From Gemmatimonadota bacterium (GTDB taxonomy: Bacteria > Latescibacterota > UBA2968 > UBA8231): DNA of 42,865 bases. Location: contig PATE01000060.1 in assembly GCA_002712305.1 (NCBI GenBank), positions 24,707-67,571 of the forward strand, given 5' to 3'. Shown here piece after piece: positions 14,929 to 39,901 of this stretch. The notes under the pieces were generated by a model. The model was not told the origin of the DNA. It was given only the letters and a program-made list of their open reading frames with translations, and did not search any database. Every line of letters begins with the position of its first letter. The first letter of the stretch is position 1. Position numbers and translations under genes: made by a program.

Positions 14929-14936
14929 GTGTGCCT

Positions 14937-16394
<1,458 letters not shown>

Positions 16395-16409
16395 TCAAAA
16401 ATTCGTTCG

Positions 16410-17261: not shown

Positions 17262-17285
17262 GTTGGTTTCCTCTCAGCTCGTGCG

Positions 17286-18812: not shown

Positions 18813-18898
18813 GTGGTTTCCTCAAGTGTTGAATGAGTCTGGTTTTTGCATGAACCGAACTCTGCAAAGGATTCAAACTCTCTGTAAGAGCTTCGAGT

Positions 18899-19447: not shown

Positions 19448-19459
19448 GGGATTAGGTGC

Positions 19460-19957: not shown

Positions 19958-20033
19958 GAAGGATCTCCTCGTCGGGTGTCAGATCATGGGAACCCACGAC
20001 CCGTTGGGTCGAAAGGTGCCCTGGATCCGCTCT

Positions 20034-20288
<255 letters not shown>

Positions 20289-20313
20289 TCAAGGTTTTTG
20301 TAGGACTCAGGGT

Positions 20314-21144
20314 TTAGTGATCCGGATGTGCGGCCATGCTGACGAACAATGCCGTCAGCAGCGTGAAGATGAAGGCCTGCACGAAGCCGATGAAAATCTC
20401 AAGCAGATAGAGAGCTGCAGCCAGCAGGACCGACGCGGGCGCCACGTAGTAACTCTTGAGCATGATGATCAGCCCGAGAAACACGAGAATGGCGATATGA
20501 CCGGCAATCATGTTGGCGAAGAGTCGTATGCACAGAGCAAAGGGCTTGGCGATCAGACCGATGATCTCGATGGGGATCATGATGATCAGCAGCGGTGCCG
20601 GCATTCCGCCCGGCACGAGGGCCTTGATATGTCCGATCAGACCGTTGTTCACGATGCCGGCGCCCTGTGTGACGAAGAAGGAGATCAGCGCCAGCGACAG
20701 GGTGACACTGATGTTCCCCGTCGCCGTGGCACTGTAGGGTACCAGACCGAGCAGGTTGCAGTACAGAATGAAGAAGAAGGTCGTCAGCAGGAACGGCATG
20801 TACGTCCGCCCCCCCTCTCCCATGACGGGCACGACCACCTCGTCTCGAATGAACACGACGATGGCCTCGAGGGCGTTGGCCAACCCGCTGGGCACCAGCT
20901 TTGGCCGGCCGAAGCAGGCGATGAGCGTGGTGATCAACAGACCGCTGGCGAGCCACATCCACACCACATGGCGGGTGATGGACATGTCGATACCGAAAAT
21001 GGGTTCGAAAACCGGAAGGTCGAGACGCCCATCGATGATGTGATGAGCGTTCAGAAATGGCACTTCCAGATAGTTGTGATCCAGAATGTGCCCTATGACG
21101 TCTACTTGGCCGTCGGCGTTGGCACCGGCGTTCGCGTCTGCCAT
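20314..21144 (-). CDS. atpB: ATP synthase a subunit
   Basis: 276 aa membrane stator that forms the ion half-channels. The essential arginine lies in ALCIRLFANMIAGHIAIL, and the C-terminal LYLLEIFIGFVQAFIFTLL carries the conserved Glu and Gln. The N-terminal region is long (about 65 residues before the first helix, with HILDHNYLEVPFLNAH), as in Bacteroidetes/Chlorobi-like homologues. A promoter candidate lies 80-110 bases upstream. Confidence 0.95.
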   Translation of the reverse strand: MADANAGANADGQVDVIGHILDHNYLEVPFLNAHHIIDGRLDLPVFEPIFGIDMSITRHVVWMWLASGLLITTLIACFGRPKLVPSGLANALEAIVVFIRDEVVVPVMGEGGRTYMPFLLTTFFFILYCNLLGLVPYSATATGNISVTLSLALISFFVTQGAGIVNNGLIGHIKALVPGGMPAPLLIIMIPIEIIGLIAKPFALCIRLFANMIAGHIAILVFLGLIIMLKSYYVAPASVLLAAALYLLEIFIGFVQAFIFTLLTALFVSMAAHPDH

Positions 21145-21226
21145 CGACTCCTCGGTGGCGTTACAGCTTTATAGAAAAGGCGGAAGGGGGGTTACGCACG
21201 CGCGACAGGCGCCGAACCGGCTCAAG

Positions 21227-21254
21227 AAACTAAGCCAGCCCGATACCTTGTCAA
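21227..21254 (-). promoter_or_regulatory. Promoter candidate upstream of atpB
   Basis: On the minus strand a perfect TTGACA (21254-21249) is followed after 16 bases by TAGTTT (21232-21227). It lies in the 123-base gap between atpI and atpB, the widest gap in the energy block apart from its start, so it could give the structural atp genes their own transcript. Confidence 0.4.
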
Positions 21255-21267
21255 CAGCACAGAAGCC

Positions 21268-21570
21268 TCACGTTTGGGACTGGGTTTGAGCACCACGCCG
21301 ACGGATGACCATGAAGATTTCCACACCCAGAAACCCGAGATAGGAGATGATGAGAGACGTGGCGTAAACCAGAGGATTCACGTCGGTGAATCCGAGCAAC
21401 AGGACACTGCAGCCGATGACCATCAGTAAGCGGATGATCGTGCCGCCAAGGACGGCGGCCACGATCAGTCCAGGGCGAGCTGCGGACCAACGCAGCCCCA
21501 GCAAGGCGATCACGGCACTGATGGCAGCCACACCGATCCCACACAACACGGCAACCCAGGACTCACCCAT
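21268..21570 (-). CDS. atpI: AtpI-like ATP synthase accessory membrane protein
   Basis: About 100 aa with four hydrophobic helices (AVLCGIGVAAISAVIALLG, RPGLIVAAVLGGTIIRLLMV, then two more ending FLGVEIFMVIRRR). Size, topology and its place between atpZ and atpB match subunit I of F-type ATP synthases, an assembly helper for the c ring. Its ATG overlaps the atpZ stop (TGATG). The sequence family is weakly conserved, so the call leans on context. Confidence 0.75.
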   Translation of the reverse strand: MGESWVAVLCGIGVAAISAVIALLGLRWSAARPGLIVAAVLGGTIIRLLMVIGCSVLLLGFTDVNPLVYATSLIISYLGFLGVEIFMVIRRRGAQTQSQT

Positions 21571-21842
21571 CACGATGTGGTCTCCTCTGCATCCTTGATG
21601 TCTGCGTCTTTCTTATTCTGTCCGGACGACGAGTCATCGACAAGCGTCCGGTAGAGGTGATAGAATCCACCGACCGAACCAAAAAGGCATCCCCCGATCA
21701 GGAACCAGGGGGAGGTCTCCCACCGCGCATCGATCCACCAGCCGCCGTAGGCACACAGGGCGATGGTGACGGCAAACTGCAGCCCCGAACCCAAGGAGCC
21801 TGCCTGGGAATAGGGTGACTTCGAGGGAGGCGTTTCGTTCAC
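21570..21842 (-). CDS. atpZ: AtpZ-like ATP synthase accessory membrane protein
   Basis: 90 aa with two transmembrane helices: GSGLQFAVTIALCAYGGWWI and PWFLIGGCLFGSVGGFYHLY. The pattern G-x-G-x-Q then GWWIDxxW...P..L..G..lG..gg...l is that of AtpZ, the partner of AtpI implicated in ATP synthase assembly and Mg2+/Ca2+ supply. The start is GTG at 21842; the frame runs further upstream but that part is the antisense of nuoN. The C-terminus is polar and acidic. Confidence 0.75.
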   Translation of the reverse strand: MNETPPSKSPYSQAGSLGSGLQFAVTIALCAYGGWWIDARWETSPWFLIGGCLFGSVGGFYHLYRTLVDDSSSGQNKKDADIKDAEETTS

Positions 21843-21898
21843 GGTTTCGACTCGACCTTCGTTGTGTGGTCGATGCACAATCCTTGTAGGTAGGCCGC

Positions 21899-23260
21899 TC
21901 AGGGAACAATGTCGCACGCCGCCATCAGATCCACCAGAGCAGCGGGCCACAGGCCGCTCAGCACCAGCACACCCGCCGCGAGCACAAGCACGGCCGTGCG
22001 TTCGGGTCTGGCCGGCGGCGGTGGCTGAGGCGCACGGGGAGCAAACAACACGCGACCACTGGCCGCGACGAACACCCATGCTGTGAGGGCCACATTGACG
22101 GCGGCGATCACGAACACGCCCTCGTCGAACTCGGCCAGATTACTCAGCAGCCTCGTGCGAGCGGCGAAACCAAGCAAGGGCGGAACCCCCGCCAGCGAGA
22201 GCAGACAGACACACACGGCCGCTGCCAGCACAGGACGGCGTGCAGCCAGCCCGGCGGCGGTGATCTGCTCTGCTCGAAACTCCGTTGCTGCGGCCAGACC
22301 CACCAGGGCAAGGGCGGCAACCGTAAGATGCAGCAGATGCGCATCCGGGCCACCCGTGGCACCGATGGCCATCAGGGCGTAGCCGGTGTGAATGATCAGG
22401 GCGAACGCCAGCAGGCGCCGCAGATCGCGCTGCACGAGTCCGAGCAGGTTGCCCAGGGTTGCCCCCAGCAGCCCCACGATGATGAGCAATTTGGGAAGAG
22501 TGGTGAATCCGATCAGGGGATCGGCGATCAGACGGGCCATCACCGCCACGGCTGGCACGACACCGAGACCGAGAATCAGCGTGAGTTCCTGTCCCGGTCG
22601 GCGCGTCAGCGGCGCTAGCCAGCCATGAAAGGGGGCCACACCCGCCCGCAGACAGACGGCGATGGCCAACAGAATTCCGCCGGCCGTCGTGGTCGGACCC
22701 GGTTCCTGACGTCGCAGAGCATCGTAGCTGACGTCGCCTGATCCCAGGGCGAACAGGGCGATACCGATCAGCAGCAGAGCAGCACCCAGTGCATGTGCGG
22801 TCAACCAGCGGGACAGTGGAGGCAGGGGCATGTGTCCCTGGCGCACCGATCGAGCCAACAGAGCAAGGGCGGTGATCTCGAGGCCCGCATAGGTGAGCAA
22901 AAGGTGACGAGACGCGATACAGACAAGGCCACCACCGACTGCGATCAGCAGGAGGGTCGTCTCGGCACCGTCGTCGGCTTCCGGTCGCCGCCCAGCGTCG
23001 AGGGCGGCCATCAGAACGCCAATCGTCAGCAGCAGGACTCGCCACGTCTCGTAATAGGGATCGATCGCCAACCACGGCAACCCGCTGGCGGCACGAGTGC
23101 CCCACATGGCCAGGGCCGCCGTCAGGGGCAGCAGAAGACCGATGAATCCCGCGTGCGCAAAACCACGGCCTTGCCTTCGGGGCCACATCCAGGCATCCAG
23201 TGCAGCCAACACGAAGATCAGCAGCAGCAGCAGCACTTCGGGCAACAGAGGATGGCTCAC
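21899..23260 (-). CDS. NuoN-like, complex I antiporter-like subunit (divergent)
   Basis: 453 aa polytopic membrane protein of the Mrp-antiporter/complex I fold, with about 13 helices. Recognisable family parts are LLLTYAGLEITALALLARS (TM5, Glu128 kept), LRAGVAPFHGWLAPL at residues 204-218 (normally FKxxxxPFHxWxPD) and SLAGVPPLLGFAARTRLL (normally SxxGxPPxxGFxxKxxxx). In this alignment the proton-pathway lysine of TM7 is Arg205 and the TM12 lysine is not at its usual place. The start is GTG, overlapping the nuoM stop by 4 bases. In complex I this subunit would pump protons; whether it does here is doubtful. Confidence 0.8.
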   Translation of the reverse strand: MSHPLLPEVLLLLLIFVLAALDAWMWPRRQGRGFAHAGFIGLLLPLTAALAMWGTRAASGLPWLAIDPYYETWRVLLLTIGVLMAALDAGRRPEADDGAETTLLLIAVGGGLVCIASRHLLLTYAGLEITALALLARSVRQGHMPLPPLSRWLTAHALGAALLLIGIALFALGSGDVSYDALRRQEPGPTTTAGGILLAIAVCLRAGVAPFHGWLAPLTRRPGQELTLILGLGVVPAVAVMARLIADPLIGFTTLPKLLIIVGLLGATLGNLLGLVQRDLRRLLAFALIIHTGYALMAIGATGGPDAHLLHLTVAALALVGLAAATEFRAEQITAAGLAARRPVLAAAVCVCLLSLAGVPPLLGFAARTRLLSNLAEFDEGVFVIAAVNVALTAWVFVAASGRVLFAPRAPQPPPPARPERTAVLVLAAGVLVLSGLWPAALVDLMAACDIVP

Positions 23261-24792
23261 GGCGCGTCCTCCGGGTCGTCCACGGGCTGCTCATCCATGG
23301 GTTGGTGTGTTGCCTCTGTCGGCAGAGGAGCATCAGCAAGGATTCGCTTCACATCGGAAACGACCCAATCGGCCACAGGGGCGGGTTGCCACCCGGTGGC
23401 CAGCGCGACACCGACGGCGACGATCAGCCCGAGTCGCAGGGGCCAGGGCATCGTCGTTGTTTGCTCGCGATGGGCAATGCCTGAAACGGGGGCCAACAGC
23501 ACACCCACGAGAGCGACGCTGGCGAGCAGGCATGCCCACACGGGCCACGCTGTGGGGCCTACCGGCGACCCAACCACCGATCCGATCGCGTGAGACCCCC
23601 CGGTCAACAGGGGCAACAACCCTGCGAAACCGCCAAAGCCGGCAACGGCGGTCAGGGCCAGGACCGACACGCCCCACCACAGAGCCAGGCCTCGGCCACC
23701 GGTCTCGGCGGGTAGCCAACAAACCAGGCAAAGAGTCGACGCACGCGGCAGACCCAGGGCAGCGCACAACAGCAGGGCACCCGACGTGGCCGCCAGATCG
23801 ACCGAACCCAGTCCGACCGCCACAAGTCCTGCCAGGCCGACGCATGCCCAGCGAAGCCGATCGCCCAGATCCCGCTGAATGGCGGCGACAGCCACCGCGA
23901 TCAGGGCGGACAGACCACCCCAGATCCGAAGCAGAGCCGCCACATCGTCGAACAGGTCGACACTCAGCGGCAGACCAAGACGCAGCCATCCACTGACACC
24001 GAGGATCGTCCACAGCCCACCCGTCAGCAGGATGCCGCTGTAGGCGGCCCCCTCGCCGCAGCTATGGGTCTGCCAGCGGTGTAGCGGCACCAGAGGCAGA
24101 TGCAGGATGAGGAACAGCGTCAGCAACACGACGGCCCCACTGGGGATGACGTTGATCACGAGGGCATCCACCGACGCGGACAGTCCGTCGCTGGCCGAAC
24201 GGCACCAGATCGCGGCCATCCACAGACAACCGGAAGCCAGCAGTCCAGGCACGAGAAAGGAGAGGGCCGCCGGCCGCCGGGGCCGGGCATCGGCTCCCAT
24301 GTGAATCACCAACGCCAGCACCAGGGCCGTCGTGCCGTGACACGCCGCGGCCAGGACCAGATCGCGGGAAAGCAGGAAACCCGCCGCCGCAGCACTGACA
24401 CCGAAGATCCCCGTCTGTCGCAGACCGGCACGGCTCGGACCATCGACCAGATCCGTCAACAGTGCCAGCAGGCTGATCACCGACAACAAAAGCAGGGCGT
24501 AGAGATTCAGACCGTCCACGGCCAAGCGCGTCGGCGGCTCGACGGTGGACATCCAAGGGAGCGCTGTTTCCAGTTGCGCAATCGTGAGGGGCCCAGCAGC
24601 GGCCCTCTCGGAAGGAGGCGTATCGAAAACGGACACCACCCCCAACACGAGTACCACCTGGCCAAGAGCCAGCAGCACGCCCATCCATCTTCGTACCGTG
24701 GGCCAGGCCGACGTCAGCAACGTCAGCAGAGCTGCCACGGCGGGCAGCCCGATCACGGCGATCACCAGGGCAGGTGTATCCAGACCACTCAC
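23257..24792 (-). CDS. NuoM-like, complex I antiporter-like subunit (very divergent)
   Basis: 511 aa, about 14 helices. The fold is recognised from order and from LAVDGLNLYALLLLSVISLL (normally GxDGxSLxxxxLxxxL) and LHLPLVPLHRWQTHS (normally KxPxxPxHxWLPDAH). The TM5 glutamate position is His152 (AAACHGTTALVLAL) and the TM7 lysine position is His231. The WLPDAH segment is replaced by WQTHSCGEGAAYSG. Start GTG at 24792, giving a GTGA overlap with the nuoL stop; the open frame upstream is antisense of nuoL. The C-terminus is hydrophilic and acidic (MDEQPVDDPEDAP). Confidence 0.7.
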   Translation of the reverse strand: MSGLDTPALVIAVIGLPAVAALLTLLTSAWPTVRRWMGVLLALGQVVLVLGVVSVFDTPPSERAAAGPLTIAQLETALPWMSTVEPPTRLAVDGLNLYALLLLSVISLLALLTDLVDGPSRAGLRQTGIFGVSAAAAGFLLSRDLVLAAACHGTTALVLALVIHMGADARPRRPAALSFLVPGLLASGCLWMAAIWCRSASDGLSASVDALVINVIPSGAVVLLTLFLILHLPLVPLHRWQTHSCGEGAAYSGILLTGGLWTILGVSGWLRLGLPLSVDLFDDVAALLRIWGGLSALIAVAVAAIQRDLGDRLRWACVGLAGLVAVGLGSVDLAATSGALLLCAALGLPRASTLCLVCWLPAETGGRGLALWWGVSVLALTAVAGFGGFAGLLPLLTGGSHAIGSVVGSPVGPTAWPVWACLLASVALVGVLLAPVSGIAHREQTTTMPWPLRLGLIVAVGVALATGWQPAPVADWVVSDVKRILADAPLPTEATHQPMDEQPVDDPEDAP

Positions 24793-26504
24793 AGTCGCCC
24801 TCCGAGGATCGCCGCCACCATAGCTACCGTCGTGAGCACCGCCCACCAAAGGGGACGACTCTCGACCCAGGTCACACCCCAGCCGACCCCTCGACACACC
24901 AGCACCAGGACCCCCGGCACCAGTGATACGATGTCCACCAACCACGCCAGCTGGCGCAGACCGCCTGTGACGCCCCTGAACCGTCGGTTTGAAAGAGCCA
25001 GACCGTCGCCGACGAACTGTCGCAGTGGAGAGGCAGACAGCTCCGGATCGACATCAGGCCGCCGTCGTCCCACCCAACCGGTCACCAGCAGCAGCACCAG
25101 ACCGAGGGCGGCCACTGTCCCCAAAGCCGGTGTGGAGGGCAGGTGTTGCGTGAGAAGCAAGGTCAGTGGCCAGAGCCCGCCGATGACGGCGCTGAAGATC
25201 ACCGTGGCCACCACGGGCGACGGAACGGCCGTCTGCTCCTGAGGAGCCAGGACGCTGTGTCGCGGCGATCCGAGAAAGGGCCAGAGCCCCAGGCGCAGGG
25301 CGGGAACGACAACAAGCGCAGGCAACAGGGCGAGCATAGCGAACTCAGGTGTCGCCGGTGGTTGCGTAGCCAATAGGTGCCCATGGAGGATGAACAGTCC
25401 CCATGGCGGCAGTCCGGCCACACCCACAGCGGCGAGCACACTCATCCAACAGGCGACGGGAAGCGACGCCGCCAGCCCTCCCCACCGATTTGCGTCGGCC
25501 GTGTCGCCAAGGGCCGCGTCCACCACATCCACCGCCCACGCGGCGGCGGGCCGAACCAACGCCAGACACACCCAGACCCCGGCGGCGATGACGGCGGGGG
25601 TACTCAGCGTGAGGGCCACGGCAAAAGCCAACTGGCTGGACCACGCCCACAGTTGAGCCCGCCGCAGATCTGTGCTGGCCAAACTCAAGATGGCGGCGGC
25701 AAGGGCGGGCAGGATGAACCCGAAACCCACCGTTGAAGATCCTGTCCAGTCTCCCATCTCGACGACGCGCAACACGAGCCCACCGGCAGCCAGAAGCAGC
25801 AGCCCGCTGATGTGGGCTCGCACAGCGGCAGGCAGCGACACGATCGGCAGCAGAGAACGGTGGAAGGGGAACCCTCCCGACAGCGCCAGGGCAGCCAGAA
25901 GCACCAGACCCGCAACCCAGGTGACCGAATCAGTACCAGTGACCTCGCCAAACAGGCGCACCTGCCAGCCACCGGCGATCAGGGCAGCCAGCAGCAGCGC
26001 ACCGGCGGCGATCCGGTGGGCCACGAGCAGTCCCAGAATGCTCGCCCGTCTCTGCAGGACCAACAACAGGACACTCAGCAGCAACCATTCGAGCGCGGCC
26101 AGTCGAAGGAGCAGATGGTTGCCGACTACCACCACGTGAGCGGCGGTGCTGGCCCCAAAGAGCATTCCTGCATCGAGGCGTGTCGTGGCCGGCGGCAGAG
26201 CCACACGTGTGACCAGCGTCAACAGAGCGATGGCTCCAATCAGCAGCGCCGACTCGGGGCCGATGTAAACATTGGCCAGGATCGCCGAGCCTCGTCCCGG
26301 AATCGTCAGCCACCCGAACCCACTCGAAGACAACGTTCCGGAGGTGGCAACATATCCGGCGGCGGAGCCGACGAGGGCAGCCCCCAGCAGGATCGACTGG
26401 ATCACCCGACGAGGTCCGTCGGCGGATACGGGGACGAGGGCGGCCAGCAAGGTTGTAGCGCAGACACCGATCGGCAGCAGCGGCCCCATCTGCGTCAGCG
26501 TCAC
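24789..26504 (-). CDS. NuoL-like, complex I antiporter-like subunit (divergent)
   Basis: 571 aa, about 15 helices, shorter than the usual 610-700. LRLAALEWLLLSVLLLVLQR (TM5) keeps Glu139. The TM7 segment LALSGGFPFHRSLLP (residues 206-220) stands where KSAQxPxHxWLPDAM is expected; the lysine is Leu208. The segment GLPPWGLFILHGHLL stands where GFFSKDxIL is expected. A long C-terminal tail ends in two helices (LVPGVLVLVCRGVGWGVTW, WWAVLTTVAMVAAILGG), consistent with the NuoL lateral-helix region in shortened form. Start GTG with a 4-base overlap with nuoK. Confidence 0.72.
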   Translation of the reverse strand: MTLTQMGPLLPIGVCATTLLAALVPVSADGPRRVIQSILLGAALVGSAAGYVATSGTLSSSGFGWLTIPGRGSAILANVYIGPESALLIGAIALLTLVTRVALPPATTRLDAGMLFGASTAAHVVVVGNHLLLRLAALEWLLLSVLLLVLQRRASILGLLVAHRIAAGALLLAALIAGGWQVRLFGEVTGTDSVTWVAGLVLLAALALSGGFPFHRSLLPIVSLPAAVRAHISGLLLLAAGGLVLRVVEMGDWTGSSTVGFGFILPALAAAILSLASTDLRRAQLWAWSSQLAFAVALTLSTPAVIAAGVWVCLALVRPAAAWAVDVVDAALGDTADANRWGGLAASLPVACWMSVLAAVGVAGLPPWGLFILHGHLLATQPPATPEFAMLALLPALVVVPALRLGLWPFLGSPRHSVLAPQEQTAVPSPVVATVIFSAVIGGLWPLTLLLTQHLPSTPALGTVAALGLVLLLVTGWVGRRRPDVDPELSASPLRQFVGDGLALSNRRFRGVTGGLRQLAWLVDIVSLVPGVLVLVCRGVGWGVTWVESRPLWWAVLTTVAMVAAILGGRL

Positions 26505-26773
26505 GGGGGTGGCTCCACGGGTTGTTCAGCTGACGTCACGTCCTGTGCCAATCGCAGGGCGACGAGACTGATCAGCAGGCCGAACACCAGCGCCAGAACC
26601 CCAAGATCCCCCTGCCCCGCCGCGGCCAGGGCGCGCACGGCACCCAGTGTCAGCAACTGCGTGCCGATCAGCAGACTCAGTCGATGGCGCGACGCGAGGA
26701 GGGTGACGAGTCCTGCACCGAGCAGGACTGCCACACCCACAATGGGCTCGGCAGCGAGCAACGGCGTGCTCAT
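26501..26773 (-). CDS. NuoK-like membrane subunit lacking both conserved glutamates
   Basis: 90 aa with three helices, the topology and size of NuoK (about 100 aa). The phrase ASRHRLSLLIGTQLLTLGAV (residues 27-46) corresponds to the NuoK segment RRNLxxxLxxIELMLNAxN; the conserved Glu36 is Gln39. In the third helix ALVFGLLISLVALRLA takes the place of AAAEAAIGLA, so the second Glu is absent. The ATG at 26773 overlaps the nuoJ stop by 4 bases (ATGA). Confidence 0.7.
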   Translation of the reverse strand: MSTPLLAAEPIVGVAVLLGAGLVTLLASRHRLSLLIGTQLLTLGAVRALAAAGQGDLGVLALVFGLLISLVALRLAQDVTSAEQPVEPPP

Positions 26774-27210
26774 TGGCGTCGCCCCTCGCGGATGCGCACA
26801 GCGAGTGTCGTGCCGATCAGCAGTGTCACGGCACTGATCAGAACCAGCAGGCCCGTCGTCGGCCATCGATCCTGCCCGGGCGGCTCGGCGGTCTCGAAGG
26901 TCGGTGCCATACCTACGATGAACAGGAGTGCCACGACGAGACCCAGAATCAGCGCCGGCAATGGGACACGCACCTCGATCTCAGCGTCGTGTCGGCGTAG
27001 ATGCGAGTACGCCACGGGACCGATCACCGCCAGATACAGCACCAGCGTCGCTGCCAGAATCGGATCGTCCACCGCAAGCCGAGCCGCCAGCAATACCCCG
27101 ACTCTGAGCGCGGCGAAGAGACTCCGATGGGCGAGGACCTCACTCATGGCCTTGAGAGCGGCCAGAACGATCCCCAGGGTGAGCACCAGACTCAGCACAG
27201 TGGCCGTCAT
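26770..27210 (-). CDS. NuoJ-like membrane subunit
   Basis: 146 aa with about five helices. The helix TLVLYLAVIGPVAYSHLR would match the NuoJ TM3 segment VYVGAVMVLFLFVVMM that bears the pi-bulge; the flexible Gly pattern is reduced. Position between nuoH and nuoK and 4-base overlaps on both sides are the main evidence, because the sequence is divergent. The ATG at 27210 is chosen for its overlap with the nuoH stop. Confidence 0.6.
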   Translation of the reverse strand: MTATVLSLVLTLGIVLAALKAMSEVLAHRSLFAALRVGVLLAARLAVDDPILAATLVLYLAVIGPVAYSHLRRHDAEIEVRVPLPALILGLVVALLFIVGMAPTFETAEPPGQDRWPTTGLLVLISAVTLLIGTTLAVRIREGRRQ

Positions 27211-28133
27211 CCGGGCCACCTTCCGGTCATCTGCAGAACGGACATGCCCATTTCGAAGACGGCCAGCGGCAGCAGGCCACCCCACGCGAAGTGGCGCAGC
27301 CGCCGCGGCGTGGGATCCCCAAAGAGACCGATGCAGACCCACCGCGAGAAGAAGACCCCTCCCAGCAGGGCCAGCAGCAAGACAAACAGCGCCACTTCGA
27401 TCGGTCGTACCGGTAGCTGTGGCAGGATTCCCGACACGATGATGGCCATCAGTACCAGTGCCGTCACGACGAGGTGAGACGCCATGCGTGCCAGCAGGTC
27501 CGCCGATGCCCCCGTTGTGGCGACACTGCCACGGTGCCGGGACACCGCATCAAGGCGACGGCAGAGCCCGGCACTGAGCAGCAGCCCCATGGCGGCCACG
27601 GGATGAACGCCCTGCGGCGCAAGCCCAACACCGAACAGCAGTATGAGAAGCGCCACCCACAGGCCAAGCCACGGCGTAAGACTCGCCATGAGGTGACGAC
27701 GTGCACTCGGGTCGGTGCCCGGTGGTTCGGCCCACATGGACGGCAGACTCCAGCGATGGGCGAGGGTTGCCGCCAGCAGCAGCCCGAACCACCACAGAAT
27801 CTGTTCGGGAGATCGCGCGATGGCGCCGCCGAAACGGCTGCCCACAACTGCGTGCAGCAGAATCGTCACCAGCATCAGCGCCGGCAGCAGACTTAGCGAG
27901 GCGATCAGCGTCGGCCACAGGCGTGGTACCGGCGCCCGCGCCAGATCGGCCACGATCCGCGCCACCGATCCGAGCAGGCCATGCCGAGGACGCCGACGTC
28001 CTTCCATGCGGGCTCGCGTGCGGCGATCCATCCAAGCCGTCAGCGCTGCGAGGATCAGAGCCCCCAGCGTCAGGGTCGTGCCGCGGAGCCAGCCCTCGGC
28101 CAGGATCGTCGGTCCCTGTGGCCATTCGGTCAT
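27207..28133 (-). CDS. NuoH-like membrane subunit without the acidic quinone loop
   Basis: 308 aa, about eight helices. RRPRHGLLGSVARIVADLA (residues 47-65) resembles the NuoH segment RVGPxGLLQPxADxxKL, and the C-terminal TPRRLRHFAWGGLLPLAVFE resembles PRxRxDQLMxxxWKxLLPxxL. The signature RxPFDLPExExELVxGxxxEY loop, which lines the quinone channel in real complex I, is not present between these landmarks. The ATG at 28133 overlaps nuoG's stop by 4 bases. Identification is by the two landmarks plus order. Confidence 0.68.
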   Translation of the reverse strand: MTEWPQGPTILAEGWLRGTTLTLGALILAALTAWMDRRTRARMEGRRRPRHGLLGSVARIVADLARAPVPRLWPTLIASLSLLPALMLVTILLHAVVGSRFGGAIARSPEQILWWFGLLLAATLAHRWSLPSMWAEPPGTDPSARRHLMASLTPWLGLWVALLILLFGVGLAPQGVHPVAAMGLLLSAGLCRRLDAVSRHRGSVATTGASADLLARMASHLVVTALVLMAIIVSGILPQLPVRPIEVALFVLLLALLGGVFFSRWVCIGLFGDPTPRRLRHFAWGGLLPLAVFEMGMSVLQMTGRWPG

Positions 28134-29743
28134 CGCGCAGGATCCTCGATCACCAGCAGTCCCTGCCGCTGAAGTGTGTCGACCCAGGCGCCACCGGCAG
28201 CGACACCCTGGGGATGGGTTCGCTGATTCGCGTCCAGTTGTGCGTGGCTGGACCCCTCGAGCCATTCGTGGCGGCTGGCCAATTCACGAAAGATCTCGGC
28301 TGCTGACGTCGGTTCACGGCCCGCCAGTTGAAGAAACAACTCCAGGTCCGTCTGCCCTGCCATCGGCGCACGAGCGGGACGCACCCGCCGCAGCTGCTGC
28401 CGATCGTTGACGAAGGTGCCGTCCTTCTCCAGCCAGTGACTGGCCGGCAGAACCAGATCGGCCTTTTCGTACGACACCAGATTGTGGGTGGCGAGGAAGG
28501 AGACGCCCGACCTGTCCAGACGGGGGCGCACCCCGGCAGGTCCTCCTCCGCACATCAACAGCTGCCCCACCTGATCTTCCCCGATGGCCGTCTGCAGATC
28601 CTTGGTCGTTCCCACGCTGGTCTCCCCAGCCTCCCGCAGACGCCCAACCCCGGTCGTATTCGGAGCCCGTGAGCCACTGATGCGAAATCCACCGGGAAAG
28701 CTCATCTCGCCCCGATCCTCCACCGACCACAGAAACAGTCGTGCACCCCATGTGGTGGCCGCATCGATCAGGACACTGGCCTCCTCCAGGGTCAGGAAAG
28801 GACTGAGCCAGACGGCGGATCGCGGCTGTGCCATGCGCCGGCGCAGACGGTCCACGGCGACGTGCCACGCGGTTTCCTCATCGGGTGTGGCCGGTTCGGG
28901 CAGCCGAAGTCGGCCCTCCAGTTCCTGGTCGAAACCGAAACGCCCTTCGTCACACATCCACCAGTCGTTGACGTCACTGTCGAGTCGAGGCCGCAGGCGG
29001 GTCACCTGACCGGCGCTATCCACATCGGCGCGCACGGCACAACCCGTCGCGCATGACCCGCAGGTGGTATCCACACTGCGAAGCGTCCATGCAGGGGCGG
29101 CAACGGTCGATGCGGGATCGACGAGGGCACCGGCGGGACACAGATCGACGAGATTGCCGGAGAGGGGATGATCCACACCTGCAGGACCGGTGGTGATCTC
29201 GATCTGGGGGCCTCGTCCCTTGATGCCAACCTGTCCTGCGCCAGACACCTCCTGCTCGAAACGGGCGCAGCGACTACACTGAATGCAGCGCCCAGCCTCG
29301 AAATGCAGTCGCGCTCCGAGAGCGACTCGCTCGGATGAACCGGCCAGTTCATGAGCCTGCGCCTGCGGACCATGCCCCCCAATCGCTTCCTGAAGTTCAC
29401 ATTCCCCGGACGCCGGACAAATGGGGCACTCCATGGCGTGACGCTGCACCATCTCCGCCAGCGCTCGCGATCTCAACGAGCGACTCTCGCTGTCCTCGGT
29501 ACGGATGATCATGCCCTCGGCGACCGTGTGATTGCACGCGGTGACCATACGGGAACCTCCCTGTCCTTCCACCTGGACCACGCAACTTCGGCAGGTTGCA
29601 GGACAACTCAGCCCGGGGTGGTGACACAAGGCTGGCACGACGACGCCGTGTGTGTGCAGGGCTTCGAGTACACTCTGCCCCCGTGTGGCCTCCACGGCCC
29701 GGTCATCGATTTCGATGTGGCAGCGAGCAGTCATGGGCGGCAT
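28130..29743 (-). CDS. NuoG-like Fe-S subunit with all visible cluster ligands kept
   Basis: 537 aa, shorter than typical NuoG (700-900). The domains in order are as follows. A ferredoxin-like 2Fe-2S domain has Cys40, Cys51, Cys54 and Cys70 (spacing C-x10-C-x2-C). The His-Cys3 cluster motif is HAMECPICPASGECELQE (His102, Cys106, Cys109, Cys115). A 4Fe-4S site is GRCIQCSRCARF (Cys153, 156, 159) plus Cys202 in DLCPAGAL. A fourth site is CGSCATGC plus Cys264 (228, 231, 235, 264), the Fe4S4 motif of the molybdopterin-oxidoreductase fold. The rest is a shortened molybdopterin-type domain ending with LPASHWLEKDGTFVNDRQQL, which is typical NuoG. It overlaps nuoF by 1 base (TGATG). Confidence 0.88.
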   Translation of the reverse strand: MPPMTARCHIEIDDRAVEATRGQSVLEALHTHGVVVPALCHHPGLSCPATCRSCVVQVEGQGGSRMVTACNHTVAEGMIIRTEDSESRSLRSRALAEMVQRHAMECPICPASGECELQEAIGGHGPQAQAHELAGSSERVALGARLHFEAGRCIQCSRCARFEQEVSGAGQVGIKGRGPQIEITTGPAGVDHPLSGNLVDLCPAGALVDPASTVAAPAWTLRSVDTTCGSCATGCAVRADVDSAGQVTRLRPRLDSDVNDWWMCDEGRFGFDQELEGRLRLPEPATPDEETAWHVAVDRLRRRMAQPRSAVWLSPFLTLEEASVLIDAATTWGARLFLWSVEDRGEMSFPGGFRISGSRAPNTTGVGRLREAGETSVGTTKDLQTAIGEDQVGQLLMCGGGPAGVRPRLDRSGVSFLATHNLVSYEKADLVLPASHWLEKDGTFVNDRQQLRRVRPARAPMAGQTDLELFLQLAGREPTSAAEIFRELASRHEWLEGSSHAQLDANQRTHPQGVAAGGAWVDTLQRQGLLVIEDPAR

Positions 29744-31086
29744 CAGAAGCGCAGGTGGATGCTGTCCGCCGTACGCAACGGCGCGTCATCGTCGATGGGG
29801 GTCGCCCCCGCACTTGCCTGAGAATCGACATGCTCCGGTGCGATCTGCAGCAACCCCTGCGTCACGTGAGCAGCCACGGTCGGATGGCCACAGATGGCCA
29901 ACCCCTCGCCCTCCCCGTGGGCTAAGATCTCAAGTCTCTCCTGCAGAGCGGAAGGGTCGATGGCGGTGACGCCCCCTTCGCGTAGCCGCTGCAAGTGCTG
30001 GATCAACCAGACCGATCCCTCCCGGCACACGGGACACTGACCACAGCCCAGCTGCGCGGCGTGGTCGAGCCAACGGGCCGCCAGATCGAGCGGCGTGACG
30101 GCGTCGTCAGCCACCACGATCGTGCCGCAGCCGAAGGATCCCTCGTGTTCGCCACCCCCCGGTTGAGACCAGACACCGGGATCGATCTGTAGTGACTTGA
30201 GCGCGTCGCCATCGAGGGCAGGTGCGCCGCCCGGAAAGACGGCTAGCAGGTCGGTCTCGTCCACGACCCCGCCTGCGAGGGTATCGATCAATTCCCCGAA
30301 CGAACCACTGCCGATCTCGACTTCGAACAGACCCGGCCGTCGAATGTGGCCACTCACACTGATCGCCACCGTGCCTGGAAAGTCCGCAGATCCCAGCTCA
30401 CGGAACGCCCCCGAACCGCGAGCCAGAATCGCGGGCAGAAAAGCGAGGGTTGCAGCCGTGTGGACGAGCACGGGGGCGCCGAACAGGGTCGGCAGATCGT
30501 TTGTGCCATTCGAGGCACGGGGTTCGGGACGTGAACACTCGATCAGATGGGGCAAAAGTTGGTCGGTGCCTCGCGCCGGCAGCGGCCCGGGCACCGGATG
30601 CAGATGAAGACGCACGGCATGTCCCGAACGTCCGAGGGCTCGGTCGATCCAACCGGCGGCCCTCGCCTCATCCATGGCGTGCCCCAGAACACTGCGGGCG
30701 CGTCGCCAATCGGCGCGAACACACAGGTAGACATCATCCGCAGTCAGCGCGTGGGCGGCGATCAGTGCCCCCTCGATCAGACGATGGGGCAGACGTTCAG
30801 CCAGTTTACGATCACGGAAACGGCCCGACTCGCTCTCGCTGACATCCACCAGCAAAGCGCGCACACCTCCCAGTGCGCCCGCGGCACGCCAGCGTGCCGC
30901 CACCGGTCGCCACGCCCCACCATGTCCACGCAGACCCGCTGCCTCGACCTCGTCGATGACGGCTGCGGGATCGATCTCGTCGAAGGCACGCCACGCACCA
31001 TCGTAGCCACCATTGCGGCGATAGACATCCAGCGCGTCCGCGTCGGGACGCTCCACCCCTTCCAGCAGCCAGCGACGTTCCTGCAT
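29743..31086 (-). CDS. NuoF-like subunit, N3 cluster kept but FMN/NADH site degraded
   Basis: 447 aa, aligned over its full length with NuoF. The [4Fe-4S] N3 site is intact: CGQCPVCREG (Cys348, 351, 354) and Cys399 in AICGHP. The flavin/NADH site is not. GRGGAGF is GHGGAWR (residues 54-60), the CNADExEPGxxKDR segment is VDVSESESGRFRDR (80-93), the CGEETALLxSLEG segment is PARGTDQLLPHLIE (170-183), and the following NN motif is HTAAT. In real complex I these residues hold FMN and NADH. The SLBB domain (about 240-310, AISVSGHIRRPGLFEVEIGS) is kept. It starts with ATG directly after the nuoE stop (TAGATG). Confidence 0.82.
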   Translation of the reverse strand: MQERRWLLEGVERPDADALDVYRRNGGYDGAWRAFDEIDPAAVIDEVEAAGLRGHGGAWRPVAARWRAAGALGGVRALLVDVSESESGRFRDRKLAERLPHRLIEGALIAAHALTADDVYLCVRADWRRARSVLGHAMDEARAAGWIDRALGRSGHAVRLHLHPVPGPLPARGTDQLLPHLIECSRPEPRASNGTNDLPTLFGAPVLVHTAATLAFLPAILARGSGAFRELGSADFPGTVAISVSGHIRRPGLFEVEIGSGSFGELIDTLAGGVVDETDLLAVFPGGAPALDGDALKSLQIDPGVWSQPGGGEHEGSFGCGTIVVADDAVTPLDLAARWLDHAAQLGCGQCPVCREGSVWLIQHLQRLREGGVTAIDPSALQERLEILAHGEGEGLAICGHPTVAAHVTQGLLQIAPEHVDSQASAGATPIDDDAPLRTADSIHLRF

Positions 31087-31557
31087 CTATGACGCCCTCT
31101 CCGGCTGCTCAAGTCGCTGCGCCAGCGCCTGCAGAGACGCCTCCTGCAGTCCGCCATACAACGTCCCACGGACCTGTACAATCGGCGCCGAGGAACAGGC
31201 GTTCTGACAGGGAGAGGTGCACACCCGATCCGACCCGAGCCGATCCCGCAACAGACGTTGCACATACCCCGCCCCCATGAGACGACAGGATAGACCGTCG
31301 CAGACGGTGATCGAGTCCGGATCGTTCATCAGCTCCGGGAAAGCGGACAGGGCACTGGTGACCATGGCCGTACTCGTGATGCAGGTCTGCGCGATCCAGG
31401 TGACGACATCGTCGTCAATACCGACTCCCTCATCGCGCAGCAGAACCGCCAGCGGCAGAATCGCACCACGCGACTCGGCATAGGCCTGCAACAGCGACTG
31501 CAGTCGCGCCTCCCCCACCGTCGCCCGCAGACGCTCGGCAATGGCCAGTTGTGTCAT
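31087..31557 (-). CDS. NuoE-like 2Fe-2S thioredoxin-fold subunit
   Basis: 156 aa, normal length for NuoE. An N-terminal helical bundle (LPLAVLLRDEGVGIDDDVV) is followed by the thioredoxin-like 2Fe-2S domain with VCDGLSCRLMGA (Cys86, Cys91) and CQNACSSAPIVQV (Cys117, Cys121), matching the N1a pattern C-x4-C and C-x3-C followed by AP. An extra Cys113 sits just before. The ATG at 31557 is chosen from family length; upstream codons are not protein-like. 64 bases separate it from the nuoD-like gene. Confidence 0.88.
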   Translation of the reverse strand: MTQLAIAERLRATVGEARLQSLLQAYAESRGAILPLAVLLRDEGVGIDDDVVTWIAQTCITSTAMVTSALSAFPELMNDPDSITVCDGLSCRLMGAGYVQRLLRDRLGSDRVCTSPCQNACSSAPIVQVRGTLYGGLQEASLQALAQRLEQPERAS

Positions 31558-31621
31558 GGTGTCGCCCTCCTCACCATCGCCCCCAGTCTGGATGACGAAA
31601 GTTCTGAATTCGCATCCATGC

Positions 31622-33055
31622 TCATTGGTCCATCTCGGCAGCATTCACATGGACACTGGACACAACATCGGCCGCATCGGCGAAGCATTGTCCCTGGAGC
31701 AAAGCCGGCAACAGGTGAAAGTGAGCACTCGAGGGTGACCGCCAGTGGGCCCGCTTCGGCTTGCTCGAACCATCGCTGCTCAACAGAATGCCCAACTCCC
31801 CCTCCGGTGCTTCCACAGCGACAAAGGCGGTGGCACCGGATGCCGGTTGCAGACCGTGGCCCTCCATCCACAACTCGAAGTGGTGAATCATCTGTGTCGT
31901 CGCCGCAGGCATGGGCGGTGGTACGACCCGAACGTCTTCCACTTGCACAGGTCCGTGCCAGGCGGCCAGCGCCTGCCGAGCCAGCCGCAGACTCTGGGCC
32001 ATCTCATCCAGCCGCACGATGCATCGATCCACCACGTCCCCTCCCGCACCGACGGAGACATCAAAGTCGAGTTGGTTATAGGTCAGATAGGGTGCTCGCC
32101 GGCGCACGTCCAGATCGACGCCGGTGCCTCGTGCCACGGGCCCACTCAGGCCATGAGTGTCTACCGCATCGGTGCTGATGACACCGACTCCCTCGAGCCG
32201 ACGACGCCAGCCGCGGCGGCCGGACAACGATTGCCTCGCCGTGTCGATCAGACGGGACAGATGGGGCGTCACTTCTGAAAGTGCCGCTTCGGCAGGACCG
32301 CGATCGATCAGAATCTGACCCGGAAGATGGATGCCTGTGGGCCGACGACGCCCACACACGGCGACAAACAGCCATGCCAGACGCTCACGACCGTGTCGCG
32401 CTTCATTCACCAGCGCGTCATCGGCACAAGCTGTGGCTTGGGAGACGAGCCAGCCGCAGTGGGCCTGAACCCGCTCCAGCTCCGCCACAAATACGCGAGC
32501 ATGCTGAATCGAGTCCGGCACGTCGATCCCAGCCAGCGCTTCGATTCCGAGCACCGTCAGCATTGCCGTCGTCGTCGGCGTCTGCTCATTGAGCCCCTCG
32601 GCCAGAACCGGTAGCTGCAGATAAGGGTGGGCGGGGGCCAGTCTGGAGAGTCCCGCCGTGAGTCGACCGGACGTGGCGTGCACATCGACGATGCGATCGC
32701 CATCGACGGCTGCCCACAGACTCAGTCGGCGGCGTGTAATCGGGCCGCCGTCGCCAATCGGCAGGAATCCCACAGGCGCGGGCATTGGTTCCGACCCTGG
32801 GTTTGGCGGTTCAGGCCAGGACGCGACGGATAGCTCGAGTGCGGGGAGAGGCGAGCCCTCGACCCAGATCGTCTCGTAGTGACGATCGACGTGCAGCACG
32901 ACAACGGCCGTCGCTTCGGCCCCGTGAACCGGATTGTGGCCGGGGATCAGATCGACGACACGGGCCCCCGACCTGCGTTGTTCGGCCAGCAGCGCAGGAA
33001 GGTCCGTAGCCGAGACTCTCTGGGGCTGGGTCACCTCACGCGGCAGAGCGGTCAT
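31622..33055 (-). CDS. NuoD-like subunit, possibly with a NuoC-like N-terminal remnant
   Basis: 477 aa. The C-terminal half is clearly the 49-kDa subunit: VDTHGLSGPVARGTGVDLDV, then APYLTYNQLDFDVSVGAGGD, VVDRCIVRLDEMAQSLRLAR, and the end segment FVAVEAPEGELGILLSSDGS. At residues 100-160, where GPxHPxxHG and the quinone-site His and Tyr are expected, it reads IGDGGPITRRRLSLW and LAEGLNEQTP, so those residues are lost. Residues 1-85 (LLAEQRRSGARVVDL, AVVVLHVDRHYETIW) may be a shrunken NuoC/30-kDa domain, as in fused NuoCD and hydrogenase large subunits. The ATG at 33055 overlaps the preceding membrane gene by 4 bases (ATGA). Confidence 0.8.
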   Translation of the reverse strand: MTALPREVTQPQRVSATDLPALLAEQRRSGARVVDLIPGHNPVHGAEATAVVVLHVDRHYETIWVEGSPLPALELSVASWPEPPNPGSEPMPAPVGFLPIGDGGPITRRRLSLWAAVDGDRIVDVHATSGRLTAGLSRLAPAHPYLQLPVLAEGLNEQTPTTTAMLTVLGIEALAGIDVPDSIQHARVFVAELERVQAHCGWLVSQATACADDALVNEARHGRERLAWLFVAVCGRRRPTGIHLPGQILIDRGPAEAALSEVTPHLSRLIDTARQSLSGRRGWRRRLEGVGVISTDAVDTHGLSGPVARGTGVDLDVRRRAPYLTYNQLDFDVSVGAGGDVVDRCIVRLDEMAQSLRLARQALAAWHGPVQVEDVRVVPPPMPAATTQMIHHFELWMEGHGLQPASGATAFVAVEAPEGELGILLSSDGSSKPKRAHWRSPSSAHFHLLPALLQGQCFADAADVVSSVHVNAAEMDQ

Positions 33056-33399
33056 CGTTCCCCGCGGGTGTCGGCGTCCAGGGCACGACGACGAAGGCCG
33101 TGGGCGAGACTGATGAGGAAGGCACACACGAGCGCGATGCCGGCCAGCCGATGTACGGCTGACGTCATCTCTCCGCTGAGCCAGAGGAAGCCGAGAGGGG
33201 CCGTGACACCGATGAGCACGGCCGTCAGACGGATCGCCGACAACGACTCACCAGAGGGGTCGTAAACGCGCACGGGGACGTTGGATTCGGAAGGGTTCGA
33301 CGGTGTGTCGCGGGCGCAAAGGCGGGCGAAGCCGACGACGAGCAGGCAGATGCTGCCCCAGATGGCGACGATGCTGATGAAGAAGGAGGAAACGTCCAC
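33052..33399 (-). CDS. Three-helix membrane protein in the nuoA position
   Basis: 115 aa with helices at about residues 6-27 (FISIVAIWGSICLLVVGFA), 57-76 (RLTAVLIGVTAPLGFLWL) and 82-101. A polar loop of about 30 residues lies between helices 1 and 2. Helix-loop-helix-helix topology, size and first place in the series fit NuoA (subunit 3), but the NuoA signature (ECG in the loop, FDxE in helix 2) is absent. It could equally be an unrelated small membrane protein. Its overlap with the nuoD start suggests a working partner of that gene. Confidence 0.5.
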   Translation of the reverse strand: MDVSSFFISIVAIWGSICLLVVGFARLCARDTPSNPSESNVPVRVYDPSGESLSAIRLTAVLIGVTAPLGFLWLSGEMTSAVHRLAGIALVCAFLISLAHGLRRRALDADTRGER

Positions 33400-33423: not shown

Positions 33424-33690
33424 CTACACGGCGGTAGACTCGCGAGCCGGATCGGCTGGCGAACTCGTCTCCATCAACTCGGGCACTTCGAAGGTGCGAT
33501 CGGAATCCTCGCCACACGACTCTCCCGGCTTGGCGCCGCACTCGCACATGGGCTCGCCGAAGCGGTCCTGCATGTTGGCCAGCCCACCACAGGAACCGGC
33601 AATGCGTCGATTGCTGACGATGACACCGATCGCCATCCCCGCCATGACGAGGGCGAATACGACCAGCGCCGCGGGAAAGAGTGTCGCCAT
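33424..33690 (-). CDS. nqrM: NQR maturation protein NqrM
   Basis: 88 aa, one N-terminal transmembrane helix ([20 protein letters not shown]) followed by the family motif GSCGGLAN and a Cys-rich tail ([14 protein letters not shown]). NqrM helps insert the iron centre held by Cys residues of NqrD and NqrE. The tail carries two more cysteines than the shortest family members. The start ATG overlaps the nqrF stop (TGATG); 24 bases separate its end from the NuoA-like gene, so transcription probably runs on into the complex I-like block. Confidence 0.88.
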
Positions 33691-34925
33691 CAGGAACCGA
33701 AATCGTCGAAGCGGATCATCTCTTCTTCGACGCCGAGATCATCGAGCATCTTCAATACCGCCGACAGCATCATCGGTGGGCCGCACAGATAGTATTCGAT
33801 GTCTTCCGGCGCCGGATGTTTGCTCAGATACTCTTCAAGCACGACCTGGTGGATGAATCCGGTAGAACCCGTCCACCCATCACCGGGAAGAGGATCGGAC
33901 ATGGCAGCATGGAAGGAGAAATTCGGAAATTTCTCCTCGATGTCGCGGAAATGATCTTCGTAGAACATCTCGATGCCGGAACGGGCACCATACCAGTAGG
34001 AGACCTTACGCTGCGTGCCCTCTGTATGGAACAGGTGGAACAGGTGTGAGCGCAGGGGCGCCATGCCGGCGCCGCCACCGATGTAGCACATCTCGCGCTC
34101 GGTTTCCTGGATGTAGAACTCACCGTAGGGACCGGAGATCGTCACCATGTCACCAGGCTTGCGACTGAACACGTAGGACGAAGCGAAACCGGGTGGCACG
34201 TTCATCCACCCGCCCTTCTCCCGATCGGGCGGTGGCGTGGCGATGCGGATGTTCAGCATCACAATATCACCCTCGGCCGGGTGGTTGCCCATCGAGTAGG
34301 CGCGGACCACGGTGTCCGTGTTCTTCGTGCTCAGATCCCAGACGTTGAAGCGGTCCCAGTCACCGTGGAAGCGCTCGTCAATATCGAAGTCCTTGAAGTT
34401 GCACTCGAAGGGCGGCACCTCGATCTGAATGAACCCACCGGACTCGAAGTCGAGCGTCTCGCCTTCGGGCAGCTTGACGACAAATTCCTTGATGAAGGTG
34501 GCCACGTTGTCATTGGAAACGACTTCGCACTCCATCTTCTTCACCGAGAACACCTCAGGCGGCACTTCGATGTTCATATCCTGCTTGACCGCGACCTGGC
34601 AGGACAGACGCTCGCCCTCTTTCTCTTCCTTGCGGCTGATGTGCTCTTGCTCGGTAGGCAGAATATCACCGCCGCCCTCGTGAATCTTGACCCGGCACTG
34701 GGCACAGGTGCCGCCACCGCCGCAGGCTGAGGACACGAAAATGCCCTGGTCGGCCAGGACATTCAGCAGCTTGCCACCCGCCTCGCTTGTGATCGTGCGC
34801 TCGCCATTGATGTTGATGCTCACGTCACCGGAGGCGACGAGTCGGGAGCGGGCTGCGAGGATCACGGCGACCAGAACCAGAACAACCCCGGTGAACATCC
34901 CCACGCCGCCAATGACTTCAGTCAT
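33690..34925 (-). CDS. nqrF: Na+-NQR subunit F (NADH dehydrogenase, 2Fe-2S and FAD)
   Basis: 411 aa electron-entry subunit. An N-terminal transmembrane helix (about residues 7-25) is followed by a 2Fe-2S ferredoxin domain with Cys68, Cys74, Cys77 and Cys109 ([27 protein letters not shown]), the FAD motif [10 protein letters not shown], and the NADH-binding [16 protein letters not shown] with a C-terminal [10 protein letters not shown]. All expected parts are present, so NADH oxidation by NQR looks intact. Confidence 0.97.
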
Positions 34926-34941
34926 GGAATCTTGATCTCGT

Positions 34942-35550
34942 TTAGAGCTGGATGCCGGAGAAGGCCATGAATGCCATGGCCATGAGACCGACGGTCATGA
35001 AGGTGATCCCCAGGCCACGCAGGCCATGAGGCACATCGCTGTAACGCATCTTCTCGCGAATTCCGGCCAGGGCGACGATGGCCAGAGCCCAACCGAGACC
35101 CGAGCCGAGTGCGAAGACCACACTCTCACCGAAACCATAGTCACGCTCGACCATGAACAGTGAACCACCGAGGATGGCACAGTTCACGGTGATCAGCGGC
35201 AGGAAGATACCCAACGCGTTGTAGAGCGAAGGCACGTATTTGTCGAGAAACATCTCCAGAATCTGCACACTGGCGGCGATAACCCCAATGTAGCTGATCA
35301 GGCCGACGAAGGTGAGGTCCACTCCGCCCAGACCGATCGATGCCAGCGCTTCTTCCCGAAGCAGGTGACGATACACCAGATTGTTCAGCGGTACCGTGAT
35401 TCCCGTTACAACGATAACGGCGATTCCCAGGCCAAATGCTGTAGGAATGCGCTTCGACACGGCCAGGAAGGTGCACATGCCGAGAAAGAAGGCCAGGGCG
35501 ATGTTCTCGACGAAGACCGCTTTGACGAAGAGACTGAGGTAGGCTTCCAT
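34942..35550 (-). CDS. nqrE: Na+-NQR subunit E
   Basis: 202 aa, six helices, inner membrane. The conserved cysteines that hold the intramembrane iron centre with NqrD are Cys26 ([15 protein letters not shown]) and Cys124 ([11 protein letters not shown]). It follows nqrD by 2 bases. Confidence 0.97.
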
Positions 35551-35552
35551 GG

Positions 35553-36176: not shown

Positions 36177-36179
36177 GGC

Positions 36180-36959: not shown

Positions 36960-36996
36960 CAGAGATTCCTACGCGCCCTAACTCGCGCCAACATGC

Positions 36997-38208: not shown

Positions 38209-38251
38209 TTCGTCGGTTATTCCCCCCCCTCAGTGACCGGTGCACGCATGC

Positions 38252-39798: not shown

Positions 39799-39901
39799 GA
39801 TGACCGCCTCGAGTGAAGCAGGCGCCCAGTGGCGGTGTCCACGGGGTAGATCCACACGACTTCAACAGAAATACGCAACCCTGCAAAAGAGATCGGTACG
39901 A

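Follow-up and report, generated by a model that had tools for sequence, protein, structure and literature searches.

Can a complex I operon without nuoB and nuoI still belong to a complex I, and what would the encoded complex do? The question is raised by a stretch of 42,865 nucleotides, hereafter called the window (contig PATE01000060.1, positions 24,707 to 67,571, assembly GCA_002712305.1), from a Gemmatimonadota bacterium placed in the Latescibacterota by GTDB. On the minus strand of the window, from 33399 to 21899, the open frames nuoA-CD-E-F-G-H-J-K-L-M-N lie between the nqrA-F/nqrM genes of the Na+-translocating NADH:quinone oxidoreductase (Na+-NQR; NADH, reduced nicotinamide adenine dinucleotide) and the atp operon. 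The junctions of the nuo genes measure 4, 1 or 0 bases, and both the A/CD slot (33052-33055) and the H/J slot (27207-27210) are closed. The initial annotation of this DNA had recognized complex I-like genes in canonical order with such junctions, which is borne out by the profile matches, the positions of the genes and the comparison with relatives. It had also noticed that the series contains neither nuoB nor nuoI and that both slots are closed; in agreement with this, the PF01058 search of the window revealed no NuoB and the TIGR01971 search no NuoI.

We propose, with a probability of about 0.72, that the locus encodes a complex I caught during its replacement by Na+-NQR, a hollowed-out intermediate on the way to loss. 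In the following, G000 denotes the genome of the window, f1 its family and g1 its genus; these and the other codes for families and genera (f1-f4, g1-g16) are working codes.

NuoB and NuoI are encoded away from the operon

The whole genome was searched with profiles for NuoB, NuoI and a second nuo operon, and an orphan nuoB (contig C1), an orphan nuoI (C102) and a second complex I locus (C58) were found. Two proteins of G000 match PF01058, one of them encoded in the C58 locus and the other being the orphan. The orphan nuoB (C1:2160-2576, 138 residues) stands in the order dnaJ-mrp(NUBPL)-nuoB-prmA and has an intact N2 motif, CC..C..C. The orphan nuoI (C102:12188-12571, 128 residues) adjoins rny and dxr and keeps both CxxCxxCxxxCP motifs, those of clusters N6a and N6b. 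Judged by these genes, G000 encodes all core subunits of the 14-subunit complex I, NuoB and NuoI included, and the orphan proteins presumably assemble with the products of the operon. The initial annotation had reasoned that electrons would have no route from NuoEFG to a quinone site in the absence of NuoB and NuoI; this argument falls, since diverged nuoB and nuoI with all iron-sulfur (Fe-S) ligands are present elsewhere in the genome.

The two orphans also mostly co-occur with the locus. The orphan nuoB was found in 7/7 genomes holding the NuoF of the locus and the orphan nuoI in 6/7, the exception being G005 (87% complete). At the thresholds used, neither of them was found in the f1 genomes without the complex (G002, G003, G006, G010, G016, G018 and G020-G024), and G019, where A and CD stand at a contig end, has no detectable nuoB, nuoI or locus NuoF. 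G007, which has lost the complex, is an exception in having the orphan nuoI. In the g4 genomes, complex I is conventional and comes with NuoB and NuoI of its own. In the trees, the f1 orphans are separated from the NuoB and NuoI of the 11-subunit locus on C58, the orphans having long branches and the 11-subunit copies short ones; the finer placement in both trees is unsure given the long branches of G013 and the long-branch warning.

The gene order of the window is shared by G001 (same genus, complete; JABJJN010000054, SI074_bin69) and is matched over the available parts in G005, G009, G012 (UBA8231, 'Ca. Latescibacterota'), G015 and G013, the contigs of several relatives stopping before the end of the operon. 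The nqr-nuo-like-atp arrangement, proposed earlier as something to seek in related genomes, is thus present in other f1 assemblies. As the order is common to other assemblies, the missing nuoB and nuoI are not an assembly gap, and an assembly error as the cause of their absence is excluded.

The second complex I locus of G000 (C58; L055 14039-20000, L056 1-3797) comprises A, B, C, D, H, I, J, K, L, M and N, is conventional and has no nuoEFG. It is this locus, and not the window, that corresponds to the 11-subunit enzyme (PMC11238625): it keeps the conventional NuoD motif together with its own NuoB and NuoI, whereas E, F and G are retained in the window locus, the catalytic residues of which are gone. 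We also considered whether the orphan NuoB belongs to a hydrogenase or to the 11-subunit complex, and rejected both, as C58 encodes a B and an I of its own and the neighbours of the C1 gene are those of DnaJ, Mrp and PrmA. Invariant Cys pairs for NiFe, by which the membrane-bound [NiFe] hydrogenases Ech (energy-converting hydrogenase) and MBH (membrane-bound hydrogenase) are recognized, are absent from the NuoD alignments.

The only other NuoF-like protein found in G000 is encoded on contig C6 (L060 9693-14335). It is a NuoE-NuoF fusion adjoining a 955-residue molybdopterin protein with Fe-S domains, and the pair resembles an NAD-dependent formate dehydrogenase.

The split of the genes is old

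Families f2-f4 have a homologous locus with conventional sequences, from which nuoI is always missing. Its nuoB is present in G035, G042, G044, G045 and G046 and is missing in genus g12 and in G025. These genomes have a canonical orphan NuoI scoring 140-145 bits and, where the nuoB of the locus is missing, a second NuoB elsewhere. As the split already accompanies conventional subunits in f2-f4, it must be old. The nuoI gene follows rny in f1 and in f2-f4 alike; on the evidence of these gene neighbourhoods, nuoI, at least, had been dispersed before the class diverged, and this is unrelated to the oddity of the window locus. Meanwhile, the nuoB genes of f1 and g12 have different neighbours, so nuoB may have left the locus more than once.

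The orphan nuoB of g12 (L076 1620-3495, G038:C58) lies between genes for an Rrf2-type regulator and a NifU-domain protein, likely an Fe-S biogenesis cluster; the f1 copy stands beside mrp/NUBPL. In f4 (L042-L045, L047), Mrp/antiporter-like J-, K- and L/N-like genes follow nuoM, and in L048 and L049 a protein of ~490 residues, without match to the subunits compared, is encoded between nuoM and nuoN.

Catalytic sites are lost and Fe-S ligands are kept

For the comparison of residues, the f1 proteins were aligned with their conventional relatives, and NuoF was numbered as in Thermus thermophilus. In the NuoF of g1 and g5, the equivalents of F70, K75, F78, N92, D94, Y180, E184, E185, K202, F205, N219 and N220 are all replaced; we take these positions to be residues binding flavin mononucleotide (FMN) and NADH. 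The equivalent of E95 is kept and that of E97 mostly kept. The AlphaFold model of NuoF retains the NuoF fold, with a template modelling score (TM-score) of 0.79 to 3i9v chain 1, and its longest low-confidence stretch, 170-203, is the former FMN/NADH loop. In the NuoD of g1 and g5, the equivalents of the HPxTHG loop (His38), Tyr87 (RxxY) and Asp139 (DH) are replaced. The AlphaFold model of NuoCD was unusable, with a predicted local distance difference test (pLDDT) value of 53.

The membrane subunits have changed in a similar manner. None of the near-invariant D, E, K and H residues of A (0/8), H (0/22), J (0/1) or K (0/2) is kept in all g1 and g5 sequences, as compared with 1/29 for L, 3/19 for M and 5/16 for N. 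The NuoK-like protein has lost both conserved membrane Glu, the NuoM-like protein the channel Glu and Lys, and the NuoL-like protein the channel Lys, the Glu position of transmembrane helix 5 being kept in g1/g5; in NuoN, the Glu is kept and the channel Lys is changed to Arg or lost. We dropped the idea that buried charges were purged preferentially, as they are lost at the background rate (14/56 kept vs 112/409, p 0.75). By these alignments, the product of the locus would lack the FMN/NADH, quinone and proton-path features of complex I, and we do not call it a functional member. The earlier suggestion of an unknown machine built from complex I parts therefore holds insofar as this is not an ordinary complex I, the residues of all these sites being lost; the reasoning from missing NuoB and NuoI does not hold.

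The Fe-S ligands behave differently. No g1/g5 sequence examined has lost any of the Fe-S Cys of NuoE, NuoF, NuoG, NuoB and NuoI (35/35 kept; six genomes covered for F and G, and five for E, B and I), as against 117/353 kept of the other canonical invariants of these subunits (Fisher p 9e-15) and 34/58 of their invariant Gly (p 2e-5). The 36th invariant Cys sits in the lost FMN loop. The N3 Cys are kept in NuoF, and so are the four N1a Cys of NuoE (alignment positions 115, 120, 146 and 150) and 15/15 invariant Cys of NuoG, in which the ligands for N1b, N4, N5 (His included) and N7 are intact. At some of the old sites, new residues are invariant across g1 and g5, namely QLPxLAExLNxQxP in NuoD and R60, R65, D81, R89, R91 and H209 in NuoF.

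The degenerate genes remain under selection

The ratio of nonsynonymous to synonymous substitution rates (dN/dS) between G000 and G001 ranges from 0.08 (N) to 0.38 (H) in the nuo genes and from 0.03 to 0.09 in nqr/atp; these values are rough, as dS is near saturation (infinite for F); if dS is underestimated, the true ratios are lower still. With neutral substitution at 0.4 per site, a mean of 61 stops would be expected in the eleven frames, with a minimum of 44 in 200 runs, and none was observed. By these measures, the nuo genes are constrained, but much less than their nqr/atp neighbours. The best-conserved gene of the operon is nuoN, with 81% identity to that of G001.

Na+-NQR accompanies the degenerate locus and its loss

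The survey of the genomes for Nqr was made with nqrB. NqrB is absent from 10/10 f2-f4 genomes with the conventional locus and from 4/5 g4 genomes. All g1/g5 genomes that carry the degenerate locus have it, as do G019 and most f1 genomes without the complex. In the sister genus g7, degenerate genes of complex I still follow nqr in G013 and G019, the G013 contig starting inside nqrD.

Meanwhile, a scar of <1 kb is seen between nqrM and atpI in G007 (G007:C123, L105 6979-7885), consisting of frameshifted nuoA, the end of nuoM and the start and end of nuoN. The orphan nuoI of this genome is intact, with all eight Cys, between rny and dxr (G007:C72, L115 3190-3552), indicating that the deletion of the operon there was probably recent. 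In G018, G020, G023 and G024, nqrM is followed directly by atpI, and the same is apparent at a contig end in G002 (g2).

A probable hollowed-out complex I and its alternatives

In the reading that we favour, the window carries the main operon of a complex I of the 14-subunit type, and NuoB and NuoI would be supplied in trans from other places of the chromosome. Na+-NQR, encoded ahead of the operon, would take over NADH:quinone oxidation together with the export of Na+. The old complex probably still assembles with its Fe-S clusters, as a loaded peripheral arm attached to a membrane arm whose channels no longer work. Such a remnant could hardly oxidise NADH via FMN, bind quinone in the usual way or pump H+ by the H/K/L/M route, and other members of the family would have completed the loss of the complex. 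The complex appears to be still made, because the frames are open and under purifying selection, the Fe-S ligands are intact, and the orphan nuoB and nuoI are kept. The split of the genes, the ligands of the orphans, the residue losses, the selection, the distribution of Nqr, the scar and the end states are all read from the genomes at hand. Presumably, the activity itself is gone, Nqr was the cause, and the change ran in the direction proposed.

Several observations weigh against this reading. All nine cluster sites are kept, the off-path N1a and N7 included; this is not expected of pure decay and leaves room for a function in redox chemistry or folding. The new invariants filling the old NuoD and NuoF sites look like remodelling, and NuoN is still well conserved. 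G011 has Nqr together with a conventional complex I, and in the f3 g9 genomes, which lack the 14-subunit locus, Nqr is encoded away from atp; these exceptions suggest that the replacement was not one simple event. In G013, the sequence of which contains Ns, one NuoB ligand is changed. Finally, the genomes are draft metagenome-assembled genomes (MAGs) of 73-99% completeness.

As to the present role of the remnant, it is somewhat probable that it only lingers as a relic, and its carrying electrons between new partners is conceivable, with the chances rather below even. The pattern of the Cys and the new motifs speak for reuse; the weak constraint, the scar and the genomes that have lost the complex altogether speak for decay. 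The equal retention of the off-path N1a and N7 fits both, because Fe-S sites also hold the fold together.

The alternative that survives best, to which we give tentative credence, takes such reuse as the main point: a former complex I without NADH/FMN, quinone site or proton channels would be selected as a nine-cluster Fe-S conduit between a new donor and a new acceptor beside Na+-NQR. The old FMN pocket would dock another donor (e.g., an acidic ferredoxin or flavodoxin) at N3, the Fe-S wire would lead to N2, and the remodelled NuoD cavity would pass the electrons to the new acceptor without proton pumping. The retention of 35/35 Fe-S Cys agrees with such a repurposed complex, as do the new invariant Arg/His at former FMN-contact positions, the motif QLPxLAExLNxQxP, which at the former Tyr87 site forms the joint best-conserved NuoD window, and the open frames under purifying selection across g1 and g5. 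However, the complete loss and the scar in the sister genus g7 show that the complex is dispensable, its constraint is weaker than that on the neighbours, N1a and N7 are kept as well as the on-path clusters, as structural Fe-S sites would be, and the operon has no gene for a donor.

A still working NADH:quinone proton pump with unusual residues is improbable. Though all Fe-S ligands, the gene order and the NuoF fold are kept, as are the E95 and mostly the E97 equivalents of NuoF and, in NuoN, the Glu with Arg at the channel Lys position, all g1 and g5 sequences have lost nearly all FMN/NADH contacts, the quinone His/Tyr and, in H, K, L and M, most buried charges, and the NuoF model is of low confidence over its longest stretch at the FMN loop (170-203). 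It is conceivable that the window NuoEFG serves the C58 complex as its NADH module, but the window NuoF has no FMN/NADH site left.

Still less credible is a machine truly without NuoB and NuoI, as the absence of both genes from the operon would suggest. We rejected it because of the orphan genes and their co-occurrence with the locus: the orphans have full ligand sets, match the locus in their rate of evolution and are mostly found in the genomes that have it, and the same split is found in conventional relatives. An assembly error or a cluster of pseudogenes, which the rapid divergence of several subunits might bring to mind, is already refuted by the same order in other f1 MAG assemblies, the lack of frameshifts, dN/dS <0.4 and the quite different look of the one true scar (G007).

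Comparison with known systems

The window system shares with the 14-subunit type 1 NADH dehydrogenase (NDH-1) of T. thermophilus (4HEA/2FUG) and E. coli the set of subunits (with the orphan B and I), the order A-CD-E-F-G-H-J-K-L-M-N, all Fe-S ligands and the NuoF fold. It differs in having nuoB and nuoI elsewhere and in the loss of the FMN/NADH, quinone and proton-path residues. By sequence descent, it is a complex I. The complex I of Campylobacter jejuni reportedly uses flavodoxin instead of NADH (cited in PMC6143742). Both are cases of complex I without NADH input, but NuoE/F are replaced there, and here E/F/G and their clusters are kept and the FMN site is lost.

In the Marinimicrobia, NQR and the NADH-oxidising complex I exchange by habitat, and mesopelagic lineages have largely replaced NQR with complex I (PMC6143742). 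As there, the two enzymes replace each other within a phylum, and there is a further NDH that lacks the NADH-oxidising subunits. In contrast to that case, the likely direction is reversed here, and the degenerate complex I stands beside nqr.

A full-text literature search, with most subscription papers outside its reach, revealed no earlier description of this locus, of a hollow complex I or of dispersed nuoB/nuoI in the group. Within one class, the genomes form a graded series of a conventional complex I, a hollow complex I beside Nqr with its Fe-S ligands kept, a pseudogene scar, and complete loss with nqr joined to atp. This series indicates which parts of complex I yield first and last when another pump takes over, and it makes testable the selection for an Fe-S wire and scaffold without NADH, quinone or proton pumping. 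It is also a warning for annotation, as 'complex I present' would be the verdict both for dispersed nuoB/nuoI and for a hollow complex I.

Gene calls and neighbouring genes

All genes of the operon, and those of nqr and atp, are on the minus strand. The first frame (33052..33399) encodes a very diverged NuoA-like membrane protein that matched no Pfam family and keeps 5/34 canonical invariants; it was called by its position, its 53% identity to the G001 gene and the intermediate form in G013, which does match canonical NuoA. The next (31622..33127, start probably 33055) is a fusion of a reduced NuoC with NuoD, called by a PF00346 match of 195 bits and by alignment with the conventional NuoD of relatives and with PDB chains. 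The initial annotation had suspected a NuoC remnant here, and correctly so: C and D are fused in related families, and in G013 and G019 the NuoC motif can still be recognized in front of NuoD. By this comparison, the NuoC domain of the f1 fusion is shrinking.

NuoE (31087..31644) was called by PF01257 (39 bits), NuoF (29743..31086) by TIGR01959 (222 bits) and the mapping of its residues onto T. thermophilus Nqo1, and a short form of NuoG (28130..29743) by TIGR01973 (246 bits). The f1 NuoG ends with a lineage-specific tail of the GGxWxxxxQRxG...ED type (window 28130-28260), which is absent from the conventional NuoG of f2-f4.

The NuoH-like protein (27207..28265, start probably 28133) gave a weak PF00146 match and was called also by position and by its G013 homologue, which matches canonical NuoH. 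The NuoJ-like protein (26770..27342, start probably 27210) matched no family, so the call relies on its position, on relatives (48% identity to the G001 gene) and on the intermediate forms in G013. The NuoK-like protein (26501..26866, start probably 26773) has a weak PF00420 match. The NuoL-like protein (24789..26504) was called by antiporter-family matches, alignments and a weak NuoL match, the NuoM-like protein (23257..24945, start probably the GTG at 24792) by TIGR01972 (79 bits) and alignments, and NuoN (21899..23260) by TIGR01770 (142 bits).

Directly upstream of the nuo operon, nqrF-E-D-C-B-A of Na+-NQR (33690..39613) are 86-96% identical and syntenic in G001, and they are followed by nqrM (33424..33690; PF04400, 26.6 bits), coding for the Na+-NQR maturation factor. 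Directly downstream, atpI/atpZ-like genes and then atpB-E-F-H-A-G-D-C (14527..22079) were recognized by their translations and by synteny in relatives. Beside nqrA, on the plus strand (window 39800-41743), a large open frame encodes a putative protein resembling, by its translation, a TonB-dependent outer-membrane receptor.

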